Position numbers and translations under genes: made by a program
In this document: positions 32,929 through 39,198 of the stretch, piece after piece
Numbering within the stretch: position 1 is the first letter of the stretch
Layout of the letters: each line of letters opens with the position of its first letter
Notes under the pieces: model-generated
Told to the model about the DNA's origin: nothing
The model's database searches: none
What the model saw: only the letters and a program-made list of their open reading frames with translations
Assembly (NCBI GenBank): GCA_029254025.1
Contig: JAQWYK010000001.1
Location: 1 to 39,198 of the forward strand
Origin: Crocinitomicaceae bacterium
GTDB lineage: Bacteria > Bacteroidota > Bacteroidia > Flavobacteriales_D > Crocinitomicaceae
Length of the DNA stretch: 39,198 nt
Reading direction: 5' to 3'

Positions 32929-32936
32929 TAAATTTG
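32929..32936 (+). promoter_or_regulatory. -7 promoter box for the DUF4836-like lipoprotein
   Basis: TAAATTTG, an exact TAnnTTTG match, 19 bp before the ATG at 32956. The -33 side is not clear. Confidence 0.5.
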
Positions 32937-32955
32937 TTTAATGACACTTTATTAA

Positions 32956-34443
32956 ATGAATACGATGAAATTTCTTAGCCTACTTTCCGCAGTACTTGTC
33001 TTAGTTGTAATTACCTCTTGTGGAGGATCCTCCGGAGAAGGGTTGGATAAATACGTTGGTCAATACCTCGATAATAATTCGGACGCTATCCTCATCATGA
33101 AAATGGACGTAGCGGGCATCATGGATAAATCGGATGTGAAGAATTTGCCAGACGTTGGCTTTCAGTTGTTAGAGACATTCAATAAAATTGATTCGAGCAT
33201 GGCGTTGAGCGAGCACGTTTACATGATAGCCTCTGGTCCGTTGGACTATGATGGAATGCCTGAGAATACGGCCTTATTTATCGCGGTAAAAGACAAAGAG
33301 GAGGCCGCTAAGATGTTCAGCGAGATGGGCTACTTCTTTGAAGAAACAGACGGGGTGAACCTACATGACGAAGATGGATTAGCCATTGGTTATACGGATG
33401 ATTTAGCCATCATCGGTATTACTGGAGTTGATTCATTGGCACAATCATTTGTTTCAGAGGCTTTCATCCGTGCGAAAAAGGGAACAATGAATGAGTTCGT
33501 TATGAAAAATATGGATTACGAAGGCGACATGATTATTTCGTTGAACCTTCAGAACTTGTATGCAACCTCGAACACCGACTTAAACCAACTACCTGTGCAA
33601 CAGCTGGAGAAGATTAAGCAATTGGCGGAAAACTCGTATGTGAACACCGCGTTGAGTTTTAATGATGGGGAAATCGTGGTAGAGACGCATTTAGCGTTTA
33701 ACGAAGAATTGCAGAAAGCGATGTTCTTTGATGAGTCAGGGAATGTAGATGTGTTGACAAAATTAGGTCCTGGAGAGCCGCTTGCTGCATTTTCTATGAA
33801 TTTGGACTTGGATAAGATGGAAACATTCATGACGGAAGTTTATCCAGAGGGGATGAAAGAAATGTACAAAAATCTCGGTCCTCAAGGGATGATTTTAGAA
33901 GCCATTGGAGGAGGAAAACTGAGCAGTTTTGTCAACGGTGAATTTGCGGTTGCGATAACAGGTTTTTCCGAAGCTATGCTATTTGCTGTTCCACAAGTGA
34001 ATGTGTATTCAGGTTTAGGGGAATCCAGTGGTGATTTTTCGGACTTATTGATTGCCTTACTCGAGGAACAAGAAGTAACAAAATTAGGAGAGGGTGTCTT
34101 TGACTATGAAGGTATGAAAATTAAATTCAATTCTTCAGGTGTATTCATTACCTCAGACACTAACCTTACCGATGATCAATTGGGGAATACACCCATGAAG
34201 GTTCCAGCAGGGATTCAAGGTTTTGGTGAAAAGCCATTTACTTTTTATGTTGATTTTACAAAGCTGAAATTCAGTGAAGGAGCTGAAATAATGGCGGGTG
34301 AAGCTGAAATCGTGATGGAAGAACTAGAGTATATTTATTTTGAAGCGGACAATACGAAATCGAAATTGGTCATCAAGACAACTGACGGTTCTGTAAATGT
34401 TCTCAAGAAATCGGTTGATGTTGCCCTAGAAGCTATTTTGTAA
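32956..34443 (+). CDS. DUF4836-like surface or periplasmic lipoprotein
   Basis: 495 residues. Signal peptide with lipobox ITSC and acylated Cys at position 22, followed by a GGSSGEG linker, which in Bacteroidota can favour surface exposure. The mature part begins with YLDNNSDAILIMKMDVAGIM and has the alternating strand/helix pattern of DUF4836, a Bacteroidota family of unknown function. ATG at 32965 is a possible second start. The downstream 97 bp contain a degenerate TTCTAAA repeat and then the ffs terminator on the other strand. Confidence 0.7.
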   Translation: MNTMKFLSLLSAVLVLVVITSCGGSSGEGLDKYVGQYLDNNSDAILIMKMDVAGIMDKSDVKNLPDVGFQLLETFNKIDSSMALSEHVYMIASGPLDYDGMPENTALFIAVKDKEEAAKMFSEMGYFFEETDGVNLHDEDGLAIGYTDDLAIIGITGVDSLAQSFVSEAFIRAKKGTMNEFVMKNMDYEGDMIISLNLQNLYATSNTDLNQLPVQQLEKIKQLAENSYVNTALSFNDGEIVVETHLAFNEELQKAMFFDESGNVDVLTKLGPGEPLAAFSMNLDLDKMETFMTEVYPEGMKEMYKNLGPQGMILEAIGGGKLSSFVNGEFAVAITGFSEAMLFAVPQVNVYSGLGESSGDFSDLLIALLEEQEVTKLGEGVFDYEGMKIKFNSSGVFITSDTNLTDDQLGNTPMKVPAGIQGFGEKPFTFYVDFTKLKFSEGAEIMAGEAEIVMEELEYIYFEADNTKSKLVIKTTDGSVNVLKKSVDVALEAIL

Positions 34444-34455
34444 AGTCGCAAGTCA

Positions 34456-34519
34456 GAATTCAGAGTTGTGAATTCTAAGTTCTAAACTCTAAACTCTTAG
34501 TTCTAAATTTTAAACTCTC
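34456..34519. repeat. Degenerate short repeat, AAACTCT/TTCTAAA units
   Basis: Two GAATTC-bearing pieces (34456-34461 and 34470-34475) are followed by near copies of TTCTAAACTCT and TTCTAAATTTTAAACTCT. The pattern is tandem and noncoding, and lies in the gap between the lipoprotein stop and the SRP RNA gene. Similar runs are seen in other Bacteroidota intergenic regions, in my recollection. Confidence 0.5.
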
Positions 34520-34532
34520 AAAAATAAACCAT

Positions 34533-34555
34533 AAAAAAAGGGGCAAGCTACTTGC
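34533..34555 (-). terminator. Terminator of the SRP RNA gene
   Basis: On the minus strand GCAAG (34555-34551) can pair with CTTGC (34547-34543) across three bases, followed by CCC and seven T (34539-34533). The same CTTGCCCC also closes the RNA's own end helix, so the two pairings compete. Confidence 0.75.
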
Positions 34556-34638
34556 ATCGCACCGCTACAACCTCCGACCCTTGCTACGTTCCCGTCCTGG
34601 GGGATTAGGAGGGAGCTGGTCGTACAAGACTTACCCCC
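34540..34638 (-). ncRNA. ffs: Bacterial small SRP RNA (4.5S type)
   Basis: About 99 nt. The SRP core is unmistakable on the minus strand at 34600-34577: CCAGGACGGGAACGTAGCAA then GGGT, the apical loop and GNAR tetraloop region that binds Ffh. The two ends pair: GGGGTAAG (34637-34630) with CTTGCCCC (34547-34540) over 8 bp, giving the single long hairpin expected. It has a matched promoter upstream and a T-run at the end. The RNA targets membrane proteins to the translocon together with Ffh. Confidence 0.93.
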
Positions 34639-34642
34639 GGCG

Positions 34643-34672
34643 CAAAGATAGAAAAGATATTCTCATCTGCAA
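34643..34672 (-). promoter_or_regulatory. Promoter of ffs
   Basis: On the minus strand: TTG at 34672-34670, 19 bp spacer, TATCTTTG at 34650-34643, then the RNA 5' end five bases on. This is the best match in the window to the Bacteroidota sigma-ABfr promoter (TTG-N19-TAnnTTTG). Confidence 0.85.
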
Positions 34673-34807
34673 TGGAATGATTTTAATAATATTATGAATT
34701 GAATAAATTCCAGTCTGATTTTTTGTGACAGATAAATTGTTTTGGAAAATTATCCCAAGTGATTTACAGAACAAGTTGAATTAGTTAAGCTAAAAAGTAG
34801 TTGAAAA

Positions 34808-35446
34808 ATGTTAAGTAAAGTAGATGATTTTATTGAAAGTGCTTCAAAATGGCAAGATGAAATGAGACTCCTTCGATCCATTATTTTGAGCTGTGGATTG
34901 ACAGAAGAGTATAAATGGAGTCAGCCTTGTTTCACACATCTTGGCAAAAATATATTGATTGTTTCAAGTTTTAAGAAGTATGCATTTATTAGTTTTTTTA
35001 AAGGTTCTCTGATTAAGGATGAGACGAACATATTAATTGCCCCAGGGGAAAATTGTAATTCTGCCCGTCTAATTCCTTTTACGAGCGTATCTCAAATAAA
35101 GTGTTTGGAGAATATGATTAGAGAGTATGTATTTCAAGCTATTGAGATTGAAAAAAAAGGAATGGTCGTTAAAACAAGAAAGATAAAAGATGTTGAATTT
35201 CCAGAAGAGCTAATTGAAAAATTTGAAGATTCACCTAGTTTGAAGAAAGCATTCTTATCGTTAACCCAAGGAAGACAAAGAGGGTATTTAATTTATTTTT
35301 CTCAGGCAAAGCAATCGGAAACAAGAATTAAAAGAATTGAAAAGTATGAGGGGAGAATATTGATGGGAAAGGGAATTCGAGATTGCGTTTGTGGTCATTC
35401 GAAGCGGATGCCGAACTGTGATGGGTCTCATAAGTTTGTTGTCTGA
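34808..35446 (+). CDS. YdeI/DUF1801-like protein with C-terminal CDGSH iron-sulfur motif
   Basis: 212 residues. The first 115 residues are DUF1801-like (EYKWSQPCFTHLGKNILIV and FFKGSLIKDE), followed by the YdeI/OmdA-type helical part (residues 125-180, LIEKFEDSPSLKKAFLSLTQ to ETRIKRIEKYEGRIL). The last 20 residues carry C193-x-C195-x8-C204-D-G-S-H208 (CVCGHSKRMPNCDGSH), an exact CDGSH pattern that binds a [2Fe-2S] cluster through three Cys and one His. Function is unknown; YdeI relatives are tied to stress survival. ATG at 34808 gives the family start. No signal peptide. Confidence 0.85.
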   Translation: MLSKVDDFIESASKWQDEMRLLRSIILSCGLTEEYKWSQPCFTHLGKNILIVSSFKKYAFISFFKGSLIKDETNILIAPGENCNSARLIPFTSVSQIKCLENMIREYVFQAIEIEKKGMVVKTRKIKDVEFPEELIEKFEDSPSLKKAFLSLTQGRQRGYLIYFSQAKQSETRIKRIEKYEGRILMGKGIRDCVCGHSKRMPNCDGSHKFVV

Positions 35447-35544
35447 CTTTGGCTGATACAGATAATAAGCGAAAAAGCGCAACTTGTGAAAGTTGGGCGA
35501 TCCTTCAATCCTTAGTTTTTAATCCCCTTTGTAAGTGTTTTAAG

Positions 35545-35649
35545 ATGAAAAAAGCCTTCTCTTGTAGAGAATGCTTAAGTACCCGTAATGATTGCATTAC
35601 AAACAAATGTAATACTTGTACTAATTGTCCTTACAAACAGGATATTTAA
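35545..35649 (+). CDS. Possible cysteine-rich miniprotein, 34 residues
   Basis: ATG at 35545 to TAA at 35649 gives 34 residues with six cysteines in the order C-x2-C-x6-C-x4-C-x2-C-x2-C (CRECLSTRNDCITNKC and CTNC). The same frame is open back to TTG 35449, just after the YdeI gene, with three more cysteines. The regular spacing suggests a metal-binding peptide, but this could be chance. Low confidence. Confidence 0.25.
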   Translation: MKKAFSCRECLSTRNDCITNKCNTCTNCPYKQDI

Positions 35650-35710
35650 ATTAGTTAATAATTGATGTTCCTTATAAGGAACACTTATGCGTAGAATCAA
35701 ATTAACTAGT

Positions 35711-35772
35711 AAAGCCATACTACGTCTGAGAAACAATTGATAAGAGTCTAGGTTCGAGCCCTGGTAGGACAA
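35711..35772 (+). pseudogene. tRNA 3'-end remnant (probably tRNA-Gln-like)
   Basis: The T-arm is perfect: stem CTAGG (35748-35752), loop TTCGAGC, stem CCTGG (35760-35764), then a 3' acceptor strand TAGGACA (35765-35771) and discriminator A (35772). No matching 5' strand (TGTCCTA) exists upstream, and the anticodon arm region (35730-35747, ACGTCTGA then AAGAGT) is only roughly tRNA-like. The T-A end pair implied and the CTAGG/AGGACAAC sequence resemble Bacteroidota tRNA-Gln, by recollection. The remnant ends exactly where LRR gene sequence begins. Confidence 0.6.
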
Positions 35773-35998
35773 CAGTAAACGCTTCTATACCTGTTAAATC
35801 TGAAATGTTTTGTGAAGAACAATCAATAGTTCCCCCAAAAGCATTTGCCTCACTCACTTGTATTTCAGTATCACCATTGGTGTTAATCTGAGCATTCCCA
35901 ACTAAATACGCTTTAAAGTTAGCATCTGGAATGTTTACGTTTTGAGCGTAACTGTTTATTGCTAAAACGCTGATTAATGATAATAGTAGTGTTTTCAT
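35773..35998 (-). pseudogene. Truncated LRR surface protein gene (first 75 codons)
   Basis: ATG at 35998. Residues 1-75 (signal peptide MKTLLLSLISVLAINSYAQ, then NVNIPDANFKAYLVGN, up to DLTGIEAFT) match the intact LRR gene at 36023-36982 almost residue for residue, and the DNA is also close. After codon 75 the match stops sharply at 35773, where a tRNA 3' end starts; the frame runs on as unrelated residues (VVLPGLEPRLLSIVSQT) to a stop at 35720. All repeats and the C-terminus are gone, so it is non-functional. Confidence 0.85.
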
Positions 35999-36017
35999 AA
36001 TAGTGATTTTGTTTCTG

Positions 36018-36025
36018 TAAAGTTA
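36018..36025 (-). promoter_or_regulatory. Candidate -7 box of the truncated LRR gene, overlapping the neighbour's stop codon
   Basis: On the minus strand TAACTTTA, 19 bp before the ATG at 35998. Its first three bases are the TAA stop codon of the intact LRR gene. The same box sits before the intact gene (36998-37005), so it is a shared feature of the array; the last base departs from TAnnTTTG. Confidence 0.35.
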
Positions 36026-36982
36026 CTCATCCATCTTAAACACCTTCTCTGTACTACCATCATCAAACACATAGATAAATACTGTGTTAGGCTTGTATGG
36101 TGTTTCTCTTCCCATAAGGTCAACTATCTTAACAAGTTGTTTAGGAGTGTTAGAGAGTTCGTTTAATCCAAGAGCACAAGGATTTGCACAAGCAGTACTG
36201 AATGATGTTTGAGGGTCGATATTAGTCCAATTAGTAGTTGAATAAGCAACATCGTCAACTTCTATGCAAGTGAGGTTTGGATTGACTGTAGCGGAGAAAA
36301 TAGTGAAATTAGCATTGTTTCCATTCTTCACATTTAGGCAAATAAGTTGGTTATTATCACACAACAAATTAGTCAAAGCAGTATTCTGTGTAACATCTAA
36401 ACTTGTTAGTTGGTTACCATTACACCTCAAATAAGTTAAAGCAGTATTCTGTGATACATCTAGACTTGTTAGTTGGTTATTATCACAAAACAAACCAGTC
36501 AAAGCAGTATTCTGTGTTACATCTAAACTTGTGAGTTGGTTCTGACTACAAAACAACTCAGTTAAATCAGTATTCTGTGATACATCTAAACTTGTTAGTT
36601 GGTTAAGATGACAATACAAATAATTCAAAGCAGTATTCTGTGTTAAATCTAAACTTGTGAGTTGGTTATTATAACAATCCAAATAAGTTAAAGCAGTATT
36701 CTGTGTTACATCTAAACTTGTTAGTTGGTTATCAAAACATCTCAAATAAGTTAAAGCAGTAAACGCTTCTATACCTGTTAAATCAGAAACGTTTAAGCCA
36801 TTGCAAAAAATATCGCCCCCAAAAGCATTTGCTTCGCTCACTTGTATTTCAGTATCAAGATTAGTATTAATTAAAGAGTTCCCAACTAAATACGCTTTAA
36901 AGTTAGCATCTGGAATGTTTACGTTTTGAGCAAATGAATTTATTGTTAGAGCAAGCGCTCCGAGTAGTAAAAGTGTTTTCAT
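36023..36982 (-). CDS. Secreted leucine-rich-repeat protein
   Basis: 319 residues. Signal peptide 1-19 (MKTLLLLGALALTINSFAQ). A cap region (20-85) leads to six nearly perfect 21-residue repeats (87-212) of the form LTSLDVTQNTALTYLxCxxN, then a closing partial repeat and a Cys-containing cap with NPNLTCIEVDDVAYSTTNW. The C-terminal 50 residues (QLVKIVDLMGRETPYKPNTV and FDDGSTEKVFKMDE) match the DLMGRExxxKPNTxxIYxFDDGSxEKxFK tail common on T9SS-exported LRR proteins of Flavobacteriales. The protein is probably surface-exposed or secreted and may bind other proteins or carbohydrate; the target is unknown. It is the only complete copy of a tandem array. Confidence 0.9.
   Translation of the reverse strand: MKTLLLLGALALTINSFAQNVNIPDANFKAYLVGNSLINTNLDTEIQVSEANAFGGDIFCNGLNVSDLTGIEAFTALTYLRCFDNQLTSLDVTQNTALTYLDCYNNQLTSLDLTQNTALNYLYCHLNQLTSLDVSQNTDLTELFCSQNQLTSLDVTQNTALTGLFCDNNQLTSLDVSQNTALTYLRCNGNQLTSLDVTQNTALTNLLCDNNQLICLNVKNGNNANFTIFSATVNPNLTCIEVDDVAYSTTNWTNIDPQTSFSTACANPCALGLNELSNTPKQLVKIVDLMGRETPYKPNTVFIYVFDDGSTEKVFKMDE
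36347..36724 (-). repeat. Six tandem 63-bp LRR units
   Basis: Six in-frame units of 63 bp encode the 21-residue LRRs of the gene above. The core (a run encoding LTSLDV and QNTAL) is nearly identical in every unit while the xCxxN positions vary. Such repeats allow unequal crossover to change copy number. Confidence 0.9.
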
Positions 36983-36997
36983 AGTGATTATTTTCGT

Positions 36998-37005
36998 TAA
37001 AGTTA
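36998..37005 (-). promoter_or_regulatory. Candidate -7 box of the intact LRR gene
   Basis: On the minus strand TAACTTTA, 15 bp before the ATG at 36982, in the same context as the box before the truncated copy. Near but not exact to TAnnTTTG. Confidence 0.35.
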
Positions 37006-37008
37006 GAA

Positions 37009-37038
37009 TTATTTTTCCATCTTAAACACCTTCTCTGT
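37009..37038 (-). pseudogene. Last ten codons of a third LRR gene copy
   Basis: On the minus strand 37038-37009 encodes TEKVFKMEK and a stop, the C-terminus of the LRR family (the intact gene ends TEKVFKMDE). The 22 bp CCATCTTAAACACCTTCTCT plus GT on the plus strand are identical to 36030-36051. Upstream of 37038 on this strand the match ends abruptly at recombinase sequence. Confidence 0.8.
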
Positions 37039-37652
37039 CAGCCAAGTGCAAAACACCATATACCGGATATTTAGCAAAGAAGAAAGGATTGTATTATTAT
37101 AAAAACAATAGACCCGGATCTAAGGAAAATAGAAGTGCTAAAAGAATGCACGAAATGTTTCTACTGTTAATAGCTCAATATCAATTGACAGATCGTAAAC
37201 TAAAGCCATTAATTAAAGATGTAATGCTTAACACCTTCAAAAAACAACAAAAAGATACTTTGCAAGAAATTGAGGTAAACAAAAAAGCAATTAATGACAT
37301 AGAAAGGAAGTTAGCAAGACTAGAGGAAAGATTCGTTTTTGAAGAGATTAATACAGCTCAATATGAAAAATTCAAGTCGATGCTAACCCAAGAAAAGAAT
37401 GAAAAATTAATGTTTTCTGAAAAAGTAGGTTTTAATTTATCGAACCTTGAAAAAGCGCCAGAAATAGCACTCAAAAAAGCTCCGGAACTATCGTCAATGT
37501 GGGCAAAAGGAAATTTAGCAGAAAAAAGAAAGATTCAGAAAATGGTGTTTCCAAACGGAATTGAATATGATCATAAAAATGACGAATATCGAACTTTTAG
37601 AGTGAATTCATTTTTCTCCTACATCCCAGCATTATCAAAAGAATTAGGGCAT

Positions 37653-37695
37653 AAAAAAACCGGAAAGTTTCGTGTAAAAACGAAAAATTCCGGTT
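37653..37695 (-). terminator. Terminator after tRNA-Leu
   Basis: On the minus strand AACCGGAA (37695-37688) pairs with TTCCGGTT (37665-37658) over 8 bp; an inner TTTCGT/ACGAAA can extend the hairpin. Seven T follow (37659-37653). It lies 4 bp after the tRNA-Leu end and overlaps the recombinase remnant's tail. Confidence 0.8.
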
Positions 37696-37698
37696 CAG

Positions 37699-37782
37699 TA
37701 CTCGGAGCGGGACTTGAACCCGCACGCCCCAAAGAGCACAGGATTTTAAGTCCGGCGTGTCTACCAATTCCACCATCCGAGC
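37699..37782 (-). tRNA. tRNA-Leu(TAA)
   Basis: 84 nt with a type II long variable arm. On the minus strand it starts GCTCGGATGGTGGAATTGGT and has an anticodon arm with CTTAAAATC (anticodon TAA), T-arm GCGGGTTCAAGTCCCGC and 3' acceptor TCCGAGT plus A. CCA is not encoded. It is 40 bp downstream of tRNA-Gly on the same strand. Confidence 0.95.
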
Positions 37783-37822
37783 ATTTGATTTATCAGACAG
37801 ATAAATCTGGTAGTTTAAAATG

Positions 37823-37894
37823 AGCGGGCGATGAGATTCGAACTCACGACCCTAACCTTGGCAAGGTTATGCTCTACCCCTGAGCTACGCCCGC
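37823..37894 (-). tRNA. tRNA-Gly(GCC)
   Basis: 72 nt. On the minus strand: acceptor GCGGGCG, D-arm AGCTCAGGGGTAGAGC, anticodon loop TTGCCAA (anticodon GCC), T-arm GTGAGTTCGAATCTCAT and acceptor CGCCCGC with discriminator T. CCA is not encoded. Likely co-transcribed with tRNA-Leu. Confidence 0.96.
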
Positions 37895-37978
37895 TTATAC
37901 GTATCAACTTCGAATTCTGTTTTTGAAAGCAAAATTCTCAACTTTGATTTCGTCTGAAACGCTTTTCAAACGCGGGGA

Positions 37979-37986
37979 CAAATATA
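37979..37986 (-). promoter_or_regulatory. -7 promoter box of the tRNA-Gly/tRNA-Leu unit
   Basis: On the minus strand TATATTTG, an exact match, about 85 bp before the tRNA-Gly. A TTATTG lies 23 bp further up, slightly long. It sits between the mutS stop and the tRNAs. Confidence 0.5.
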
Positions 37987-38025
37987 ATTGAATTTTTAAT
38001 TGAATGCACCAATAAGTTAAAAAAA

Positions 38026-39198
38026 CTACTTTTTCCCTGTCAATTTTTTTATTTCATTCAACTTCAATAATGCATCCATCGGCGTGAGGGTGTCAATATC
38101 AAGATTTTGCACTTCATCACGTATTTGTTCCAAAACTGGATCATCCAATTGGAAAAAGCTCAGTTGCATGTCAGGTTGTTGTGTAATCTCTTTGAAGTTC
38201 TCCCGATCTTTGGCGCGAGAGGATTGTTCCAAATCATTCAGCATTTTGGTCGCTCGTTGGATAACGGCTTTTGGCATTCCAGCGAGTTTCGCAACATGAA
38301 TACCGAAGCTGTGCTCACTTCCTCCTTCCACTAATTTACGTAAGAATAAAATTTTTGTCCCGACTTCTTTCACCGCTACATTAAAGTTTTTGATACGAGG
38401 GAATTTGTTTGTCATTTCGTTCAACTCGTGGTAGTGCGTAGCAAATAGCGTTTTGCAATGCGCTGTAGGGTGTTGATGTATGTATTCCGCAATTGCCCAT
38501 GCGATGGAGATTCCGTCGTAGGTGCTTGTTCCTCGTCCGATTTCATCCAAAAGTACCAAGCTTCTTGGTGAAAGGTTGTTTAGGATACTCGATGTTTCAT
38601 TCATTTCTACCATGAAGGTAGATTCTCCTGAGGCGATATTGTCAGAAGCGCCAACGCGCGTAAATACTTTGTCAATTAAACCAAGTTTTGCCGATTTTGC
38701 AGGAACAAAAGAGCCCATTTGCGCCATTAAACAAATTAATGCTGTTTGCCGTAGAATCGCACTTTTACCCGACATGTTGGGCCCCGTAATCATAATGATC
38801 TGTTGTTGCTCATTATCAAGGAAGATGTCGTTGGCAACGTAAGCCTCGCCGGGTTTTAGTTCACGTTCAATAACGGGATGGCGTCCTTCTTGAATGGAGA
38901 TTTCAAACGAATCATCGACAATGGGTTTTATATAGTTGTAACGTTGTGCGATTTCAGCAAAAGCGTGCAAACAATCAATCTGACCAATGAGTTGAGCATT
39001 GTTTTGAACAGGCGCTATAAAATCGGCTAGCGCATATACTAGATCTTGAAAAATTTGTGTTTCTAAAGCATATATTTTTTCTTCTGCACCTAATATTTTC
39101 TGTTCATAGATTTTTAACTCCTCGGTGATGTATCGTTCAGCATTCACAAGTGTTTGCTTGCGAATCCAGTCTTCAGGAACCTTGTCTTTATGGGTATT
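38026..39198 (-). CDS. mutS: DNA mismatch repair protein MutS, N-terminus outside the window
   Basis: 391 codons are open to the right edge with no start, so only the C-terminal part is seen; the frame extends upstream as [20 protein letters not shown], the typical MutS core segment. The ATPase domain is complete: Walker A GPNMSGKS, the Q-loop, Walker [17 protein letters not shown], and [11 protein letters not shown]. The C-terminal helix-turn-helix dimer part ([17 protein letters not shown]) follows. MutS binds mismatches and recruits MutL. A GTG at 39147 is internal and not the start. Confidence 0.96.

Follow-up and report, generated by a model that had tools for sequence, protein, structure and literature searches.

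A 2.1-kb mosaic at the 3' end of a tRNA-Leu gene in a Crocinitomicaceae genome: probable remains of an element with a large serine integrase

Introduction

How does a tRNA gene come to stand beside pieces of a transposase, of a second tRNA, of a leucine-rich repeat (LRR) gene array and of a serine integrase, and do these pieces descend from one mobile element or from several? The question is raised by a Crocinitomicaceae bacterium (assembly GCA_029254025.1; 2.70 Mb in 50 contigs, 99.9% complete), in which a 2.1-kb block with a short repeat on each side lies at the 3' end of a tRNA-Leu(taa) gene on contig C50 (JAQWYK010000001.1), whose entire length of 39198 bp is the window analysed here. From the left, the block consists of the tail of an IS3-like transposase, a palindrome, a tRNA-Gln 3' end, a slice of an LRR array and the C-terminal half of a serine integrase, followed by tRNA-Leu. 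An original prediction, made from the DNA letters alone, had regarded the locus as a larger LRR array within a mobile element, collapsed by recombination between copies and deprived of its recombinase. We consider it fairly probable that the 3' end of tRNA-Leu(taa) once received an element encoding a large serine integrase, that this element subsequently decayed, and that scraps of several mobile elements are what is left.

Borders of the block and its integrase remnant

Direct repeats mark the two borders, AGTACCCG at 35578-35585 and AGTACTCG at 37697-37704, which differ at one position and have an AGTAC core in common (35578-35582 and 37697-37701). The left border reads TTAAGTAC followed by CCG; the right one, which is the 3' terminus of tRNA-Leu(taa), reads TTCAGTAC followed by TCG. 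G001 was the sole genome of the same genus compared, and its sequence aligns with the window over 32930-35598 (93.7%) and again over 37694-39195 (92.2%), with no alignment between them; G001 has neither the LRR pieces nor the integrase piece, and other genes occupy that place. A terminator-like sequence is found directly at tRNA-Leu in G001 and 2.1 kb away from it in the window. Likewise, 13 of 16 bases agree with G001 over 35583-35598, three of the positions belonging to the tRNA end and six overlapping the transposase scrap, and a shared ancestry of this left arm is plausible. The block has a G+C content of 32-33%, against 40-41% in the host flanks. The mobile-element part of the original prediction is therefore retained as a degraded insertion at tRNA-Leu, and the same breakpoints across a clade were not seen, given that the sole same-genus genome lacks both pieces.

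The integrase piece (37041-37694) corresponds, in the alignment with a large serine integrase of G243, to residues 308-517 of that 555-aa protein, which has Resolvase and Recombinase domains. The fragment in the window is without the N-terminal catalytic Resolvase domain and is thus a remnant, whose C-terminal region is homologous to full-length large serine integrases. It had been described as a recombinase cut at its zinc ribbon; the truncation and the starting position hold, but at most one of the four cysteines is present in the fragment, and likewise in four aligned full-length relatives at tRNA-Leu. Among the other members aligned, those at Met, Arg, His and Gln tRNAs keep these cysteines, those at tRNA-Leu having lost most of them.

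In the course of events that we infer, the element would have entered the 3' end of tRNA-Leu(taa), with its integrase gene facing and overlapping the tRNA and the end of that gene supplying a hairpin in place of the displaced terminator. The element would then have decayed through illegitimate deletions and further insertions, and the residue between the attachment remnants would be the IS3-like transposase tail with its tRNA-Gln end, the LRR array slice and the integrase stub. The hairpin at the integrase 3' end, on the tRNA strand, is likely to serve tRNA-Leu as a substitute terminator. The features of the locus are as follows.

35550..35577, minus strand: hairpin that probably served as terminator of tRNA-Leu before the insertion, at a present distance of 2.1 kb; related sequence adjoins tRNA-Leu in G001; fold -9.2 kcal/mol, z -2.95
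35578..35592, no strand: putative left attachment remnant, AGTACCCG (copy of the tRNA-Leu 3' end) and a short arm; one difference from the tRNA-Leu end at 37697-37704, and similar to the G001 left arm
35593..35649, plus strand: C-terminal codons of an IS3-like transposase, NKCNTCTNCPYKQDI and stop; matched in G055:C41, full homologues in G280 and G307
35666..35683, no strand: perfect 18-bp palindrome TGTTCCTTATAAGGAACA, also 3' of related transposases in G055, G280 and G307
35742..35772 (about), plus strand: 3' end of a tRNA-Gln gene (T arm and acceptor strand); matches in relatives, same order in G280
35773..35998, minus strand: LRR copy A, first 75 codons, cut where its repeats begin; recognized by similarity to copy B
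36023..36982, minus strand: LRR copy B, intact, 319 aa, with LRR_4 repeats (PF12799, E 3e-16)
37009..37038, minus strand: LRR copy C, last nine codons and stop (TEKVFKMEK, stop)
37041..37699, plus strand: C-terminal half of a large serine integrase, matching the G243 protein over residues 308-517; frame open through tRNA-Leu to 37823
37660..37693, minus strand: hairpin within the integrase 3' end, likely replacement terminator of tRNA-Leu; fold -14.8 kcal/mol, z -5.55, 0/200 shuffles as stable
37698..37782, minus strand: tRNA-Leu(taa), the integration site (ARAGORN; Rfam RF00005)

Several points weigh against a decayed integrase element at this site. The corresponding site in G001 is not cleanly empty, since it is occupied by another insert and a second copy of the terminator; by eye, the four or five small frames of this insert are MarR-, monooxygenase- and GNAT-like. 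The repeat common to the two borders is no longer than 5-8 bases; the left arm that agrees with G001 is likewise short, and part of it lies within the transposase scrap. In addition, a neighbouring host gene (34808-35446) also has a low G+C content at third positions (0.286), and both junctions are known from a draft assembly alone.

This last point leads to the possibility that the mosaic is an assembly artefact, in which reads from different places were joined at both breaks. The 50-contig draft does contain branching paths, as another contig, C1, has exactly 99 bp (37621-37719) in common with the window, and LRR genes of relatives are often found at contig ends. Nevertheless, C1 branches off about 680 bp away from the closer of the two disputed junctions, and an abutting LRR gene and integrase stub also occur in an unrelated assembly (L135, described below); we regard an artefact as very unlikely.

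Contig C1 of the same genome (L068, L123) begins with its exact copy of 37621-37719, which covers the 3' ends of both the integrase gene and tRNA-Leu, and beyond it diverges into a gene resembling a tyrosine recombinase by eye. This arrangement suggests another element in the same tRNA-Leu in part of the population.

Transposase scrap and tRNA-Gln end

The left part of the block has a history of its own. Of the 181 bases of segment 35593-35773, 179 (99%) are identical in G055:C41, whose genome belongs to a different family. Full homologues of the transposase in G280 and G307 end in NKCNxCxxC, and the one in G280 carries rve domains, as expected of the core of IS3-family transposases; the fragment in G055 gives a weak match to NF033516, below its cut-off. 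The window differs from such systems in retaining only the last codons of the gene, which are trailed by the palindrome and the tRNA-Gln end. This order of transposase, palindrome and tRNA-Gln end is common to the window (35593-35772), G055 (L247 7377-8114) and G280 (L252 1467-3068); in G307 the palindrome is present and the tRNA-Gln end was not found. Related transposases were detected at E 1e-40 in 14 of 299 genomes. A general targeting of tRNA-Gln by this transposon was considered, and of the 16 transposase loci examined only two, in G055 and G280, carry the tRNA-Gln end.

The best matches to the tRNA scrap in relatives reach about 94% over 33-34 bases, and all six loci tested are intact tRNA-Gln(ttg) genes. 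Within the host genome no other match to the scrap was found at up to three mismatches, the host's own tRNA-Gln differing from it at 4 of 24 positions, and a host origin is unlikely to judge from these comparisons. The original prediction was right in recognizing a tRNA 3' end at the left break, here refined to tRNA-Gln, and had taken it for the boundary of the LRR element. However, because the same pair of transposase scrap and tRNA end is found in G055 with other DNA following, including a HigA antitoxin gene, the tRNA end belongs with the transposase scrap and is therefore not the boundary of the LRR array's element. It was likewise ruled out as the attachment site of the integrase element, since it is tRNA-Gln and not tRNA-Leu and accompanies the transposase scrap.

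LRR gene copies

As originally described, three pieces of one LRR family lie head to tail, namely 75 codons, an intact copy and a short tail, between sharp outer breaks at 35772/35773 and 37038/37039; the "last ten codons" of copy C are more exactly nine codons and a stop. The spacers are indeed short, measuring 24 and 26 bp, and the attC sites of integron cassettes are longer than that. Copy A is 77% identical to copy B over residues 1-77 of the protein, and copy C reads TEKVFKMEK before its stop where copy B ends in TEKVFKMDE. At the DNA level, 35773-36052 recurs at 36757-37038 in main pieces that are 84-95% identical, far above chance. Taken together, these similarities indicate that the slice comes from a head-to-tail array which had three genes or more; only one of the three copies here is complete.

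Elsewhere in the host genome only three short matches to the LRR protein occur, all to its C-terminal tail, and a similar tail also ends other host proteins. Searched in NCBIfam at E 0.01, the LRR protein of the window gave no match to TIGR04183, the C-terminal sorting domain of the type IX secretion system (T9SS). Copy B itself is intact and could still yield an LRR protein that looks secreted. The gene may nevertheless be silent, because the upstream part of its operon appears to be lost, and no TAnnTTTG motif is found in the 198 bp upstream of gene B, which would likewise fit a loss of expression. At its start (36956-36971) the intact LRR gene has a 16-nt inverted match (88%) to the tRNA-Leu 3' end (37694-37709), which is probably due to chance.

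The original prediction explained the outer breaks by a collapse between copies. Such recombination would leave an LRR-LRR joint, not unrelated DNA, and since both ends are fused to non-LRR DNA it is rejected as their cause. To judge from relatives, the LRR ends have perhaps one to three bases in common with the DNA to which they are joined.

More widely, the LRR family is found at E 1e-25 in 111 of 399 genomes of the order. Head-to-tail LRR neighbours within 400 bp occur at 10 of 80 named loci and at 5 of 15 further loci, where some of the neighbours match only through the tail or the repeats, and several LRR genes sit at contig ends, as expected of repeats. The best DNA match on plasmids covers 13% at 67%; relatives of the LRR protein are present on 73 plasmid records, the best place of each being below 60% identity and none covering 80%. 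One LRR relative was also detected in IMG/VR, on a contig that has genes which look phage-like by eye. Tandem arrays of LRR genes whose number varies have a precedent in Flavobacterium psychrophilum: its isolates are reported to differ in this number, with 16 to 23 consecutive LRR genes (PMC8400371), and TIGR04183 is given as the tail of several LRR proteins of this species (PMC5682007). The consecutive genes of the window resemble these arrays in their arrangement, and differ from them in that only a three-copy slice is kept.

LRR genes and the integrase

Two further loci bring LRR genes and this integrase family together. In L135, a contig of a Flavobacteriales metagenome-assembled genome (CAJJBU010000013.1), a tRNA-Arg, a C-terminal integrase remnant and an LRR gene abut in the same relative orientation as in the window, the remnant being identical at 62 of 138 positions and the LRR gene at 51%, with different breakpoints. 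In G071 (L275 2011-15453, G071:C9) an intact integrase lies at tRNA-Arg, with several LRR and DUF4116 paralogues head to tail upstream of it. These genes have a common N-terminal module and differing C-terminal parts (two LRR types and DUF4116), and appear by eye to lack a signal peptide. About 18 kb separate an LRR gene from an integrase in G037.

Both loci, together with the head-to-tail genes of relatives and the variable copy number in F. psychrophilum, speak for a larger LRR array that was carried by the integrase element as part of a surface-variation system and became smaller when its copies recombined homologously, the recombinase being lost. Against this stand, besides the non-LRR DNA at both outer ends, the N-terminal module of the G071 genes, which differs from that of the LRR family in the window, and the surroundings of other loci: the 169 kb surrounding 50 other integrase loci, mostly in flanks of 1.5 kb, contained no LRR relative, and none of 15 further LRR loci had the integrase. 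A scan of 110 LRR loci with the window fragment as sole query found the integrase at one of them, and among the intact or near-intact elements read, LRR matches were present only in G071 and, weakly, in G275. LRR genes as regular cargo of the integrase are consequently not supported as a rule (0/50 integrase loci, 0/15 and 1/110 LRR loci), and we consider the cargo and collapse explanation improbable. A full-length recombinase together with more LRR copies had been expected in relatives; the 555-aa integrase of G243 at tRNA-Leu(taa) is such a recombinase, but no LRR relative was found in the 40 kb read around it.

The LRR slice might instead have arrived independently of the integrase and been caught in the tRNA-Leu hotspot by chance deletions. 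Most LRR genes of this family are not near an integrase, and the best DNA match to the slice (76%, in G322) has none in the 10 kb read. The two junctions of LRR gene and integrase stub, in the window and in L135, nevertheless exceed expectation for unrelated genes, in a small sample. We hold independent arrival to be a real possibility, a little short of an even chance, and the association between LRR genes and integrase to be suggestive at most. Either origin of the slice is weighed here separately from the decay of the integrase element, which remains the explanation that we prefer for the block.

Integrase family at tRNA 3' ends

The locus itself is mostly ordinary decay, and a further example of island decay at a tRNA; the family to which its integrase belongs is the more interesting lead. 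Close relatives stand beside tRNA-Leu in G068 (89%), G055 (96% over residues 99-218), G018 (68%) and G275 (64%, with stops), those of G018 and G275 being degraded stubs, and a relative in G031 (76%) ends at an apparent tRNA-Leu remnant. We compiled 51 integrase loci, the window included, which are the best matches among those listed and contain some near-copies, so that they are not independent (L263 11785-13452, L038-L067 and L206-L226). At 43 of these 51 loci a tRNA converges on the integrase, with its 3' end between -60 and 120 bp relative to the end of the match; the other eight comprise three without a tblastn match, four without a tRNA and one with a tRNA 188 bp off. The integrase stop codon falls inside the tRNA (31 loci) or beyond it (12) at 43 of the 44 loci that could be judged, and before it in one. 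When mapped on a tree of 36 integrase loci, tRNA isotype requires 9 changes against a shuffled mean of 19.3, a value as low being reached in 0/200 shuffles. Isotype is thus clustered on the tree, yet there is not one clade per isotype, the Leu and Met isotypes each needing several changes.

The intact relative in G243 has its 555-aa integrase at tRNA-Leu(taa), next to tRNA-Gly, in an arrangement like that of the window, and a 12-bp copy of the tRNA core is found 20.1 kb away beside an apparent displaced terminator. A second attachment core was sought in seven elements; besides the 12-bp core of G243, a 23-bp match was found in G071, and nothing convincing in the other five. For this one element, a script joining the G243 ends predicts an integrase of 546 aa for the circle and of 555 aa after integration, the last residues of the two being different. 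Such a change of the tail on integration could act as a switch on the integrase, a possible control of its activity.

From these observations we hypothesize, at roughly even chances, a serine integrase family dedicated to tRNA 3' ends, with isotype specificity according to position on the tree. The attachment site would lie at the very end of the integrase gene, and integration would therefore fuse its frame to the antisense of the tRNA, bring a new terminator and rewrite the C-terminal tail where the frame passes the core. The tRNA genes would in turn be scrapyards that keep the integrase 3' end and catch LRR pieces. If serine integrases of this order do select tRNA 3' ends by isotype, they would offer a set of integrases paired with attachment sites for Bacteroidota. 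The open frame of G031 has the same length as that of the window, 265, which raised the possibility that the integrase is cut in a conserved, programmed manner; this was rejected, as the G031 frame continues upstream and then meets an IS-like interruption by eye.

The block resembles genomic islands and prophages at tRNA genes in having integrase sequence beside an attachment site at a tRNA 3' end, a short direct repeat, a replaced terminator and signs of decay, and differs from them in that its integrase is a serine one, tRNA sites being described for tyrosine integrases in the passages cited here. These concern an island of Riemerella anatipestifer at tRNA-Arg with a tyrosine integrase (PMC6764341), Mycobacterium abscessus, with tRNA sites for 16 of 23 tyrosine sites (PMC10654092), and integrative mobilizable elements, in which serine integrases are said to insert within genes and tRNA sites are described for tyrosine ones (PMC5704250). 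A limited literature search found no paper on tRNA-targeting serine integrases of Flavobacteriales; no wider absence is claimed, the search being too small to call the pattern new. The locus provides a clear example of island decay, together with the caution that a neat-looking mosaic can consist of several unrelated scraps.

Among viral sequences, the window fragment had no match in phages and a scan with the G243 integrase found none; in IMG/VR one integrase relative was detected at 49%, beside a repressor-like gene by eye. In G241 (L250 8680-8860) the integrase frame has a frameshift almost at the codon where the window fragment starts, which we take as a coincidence.

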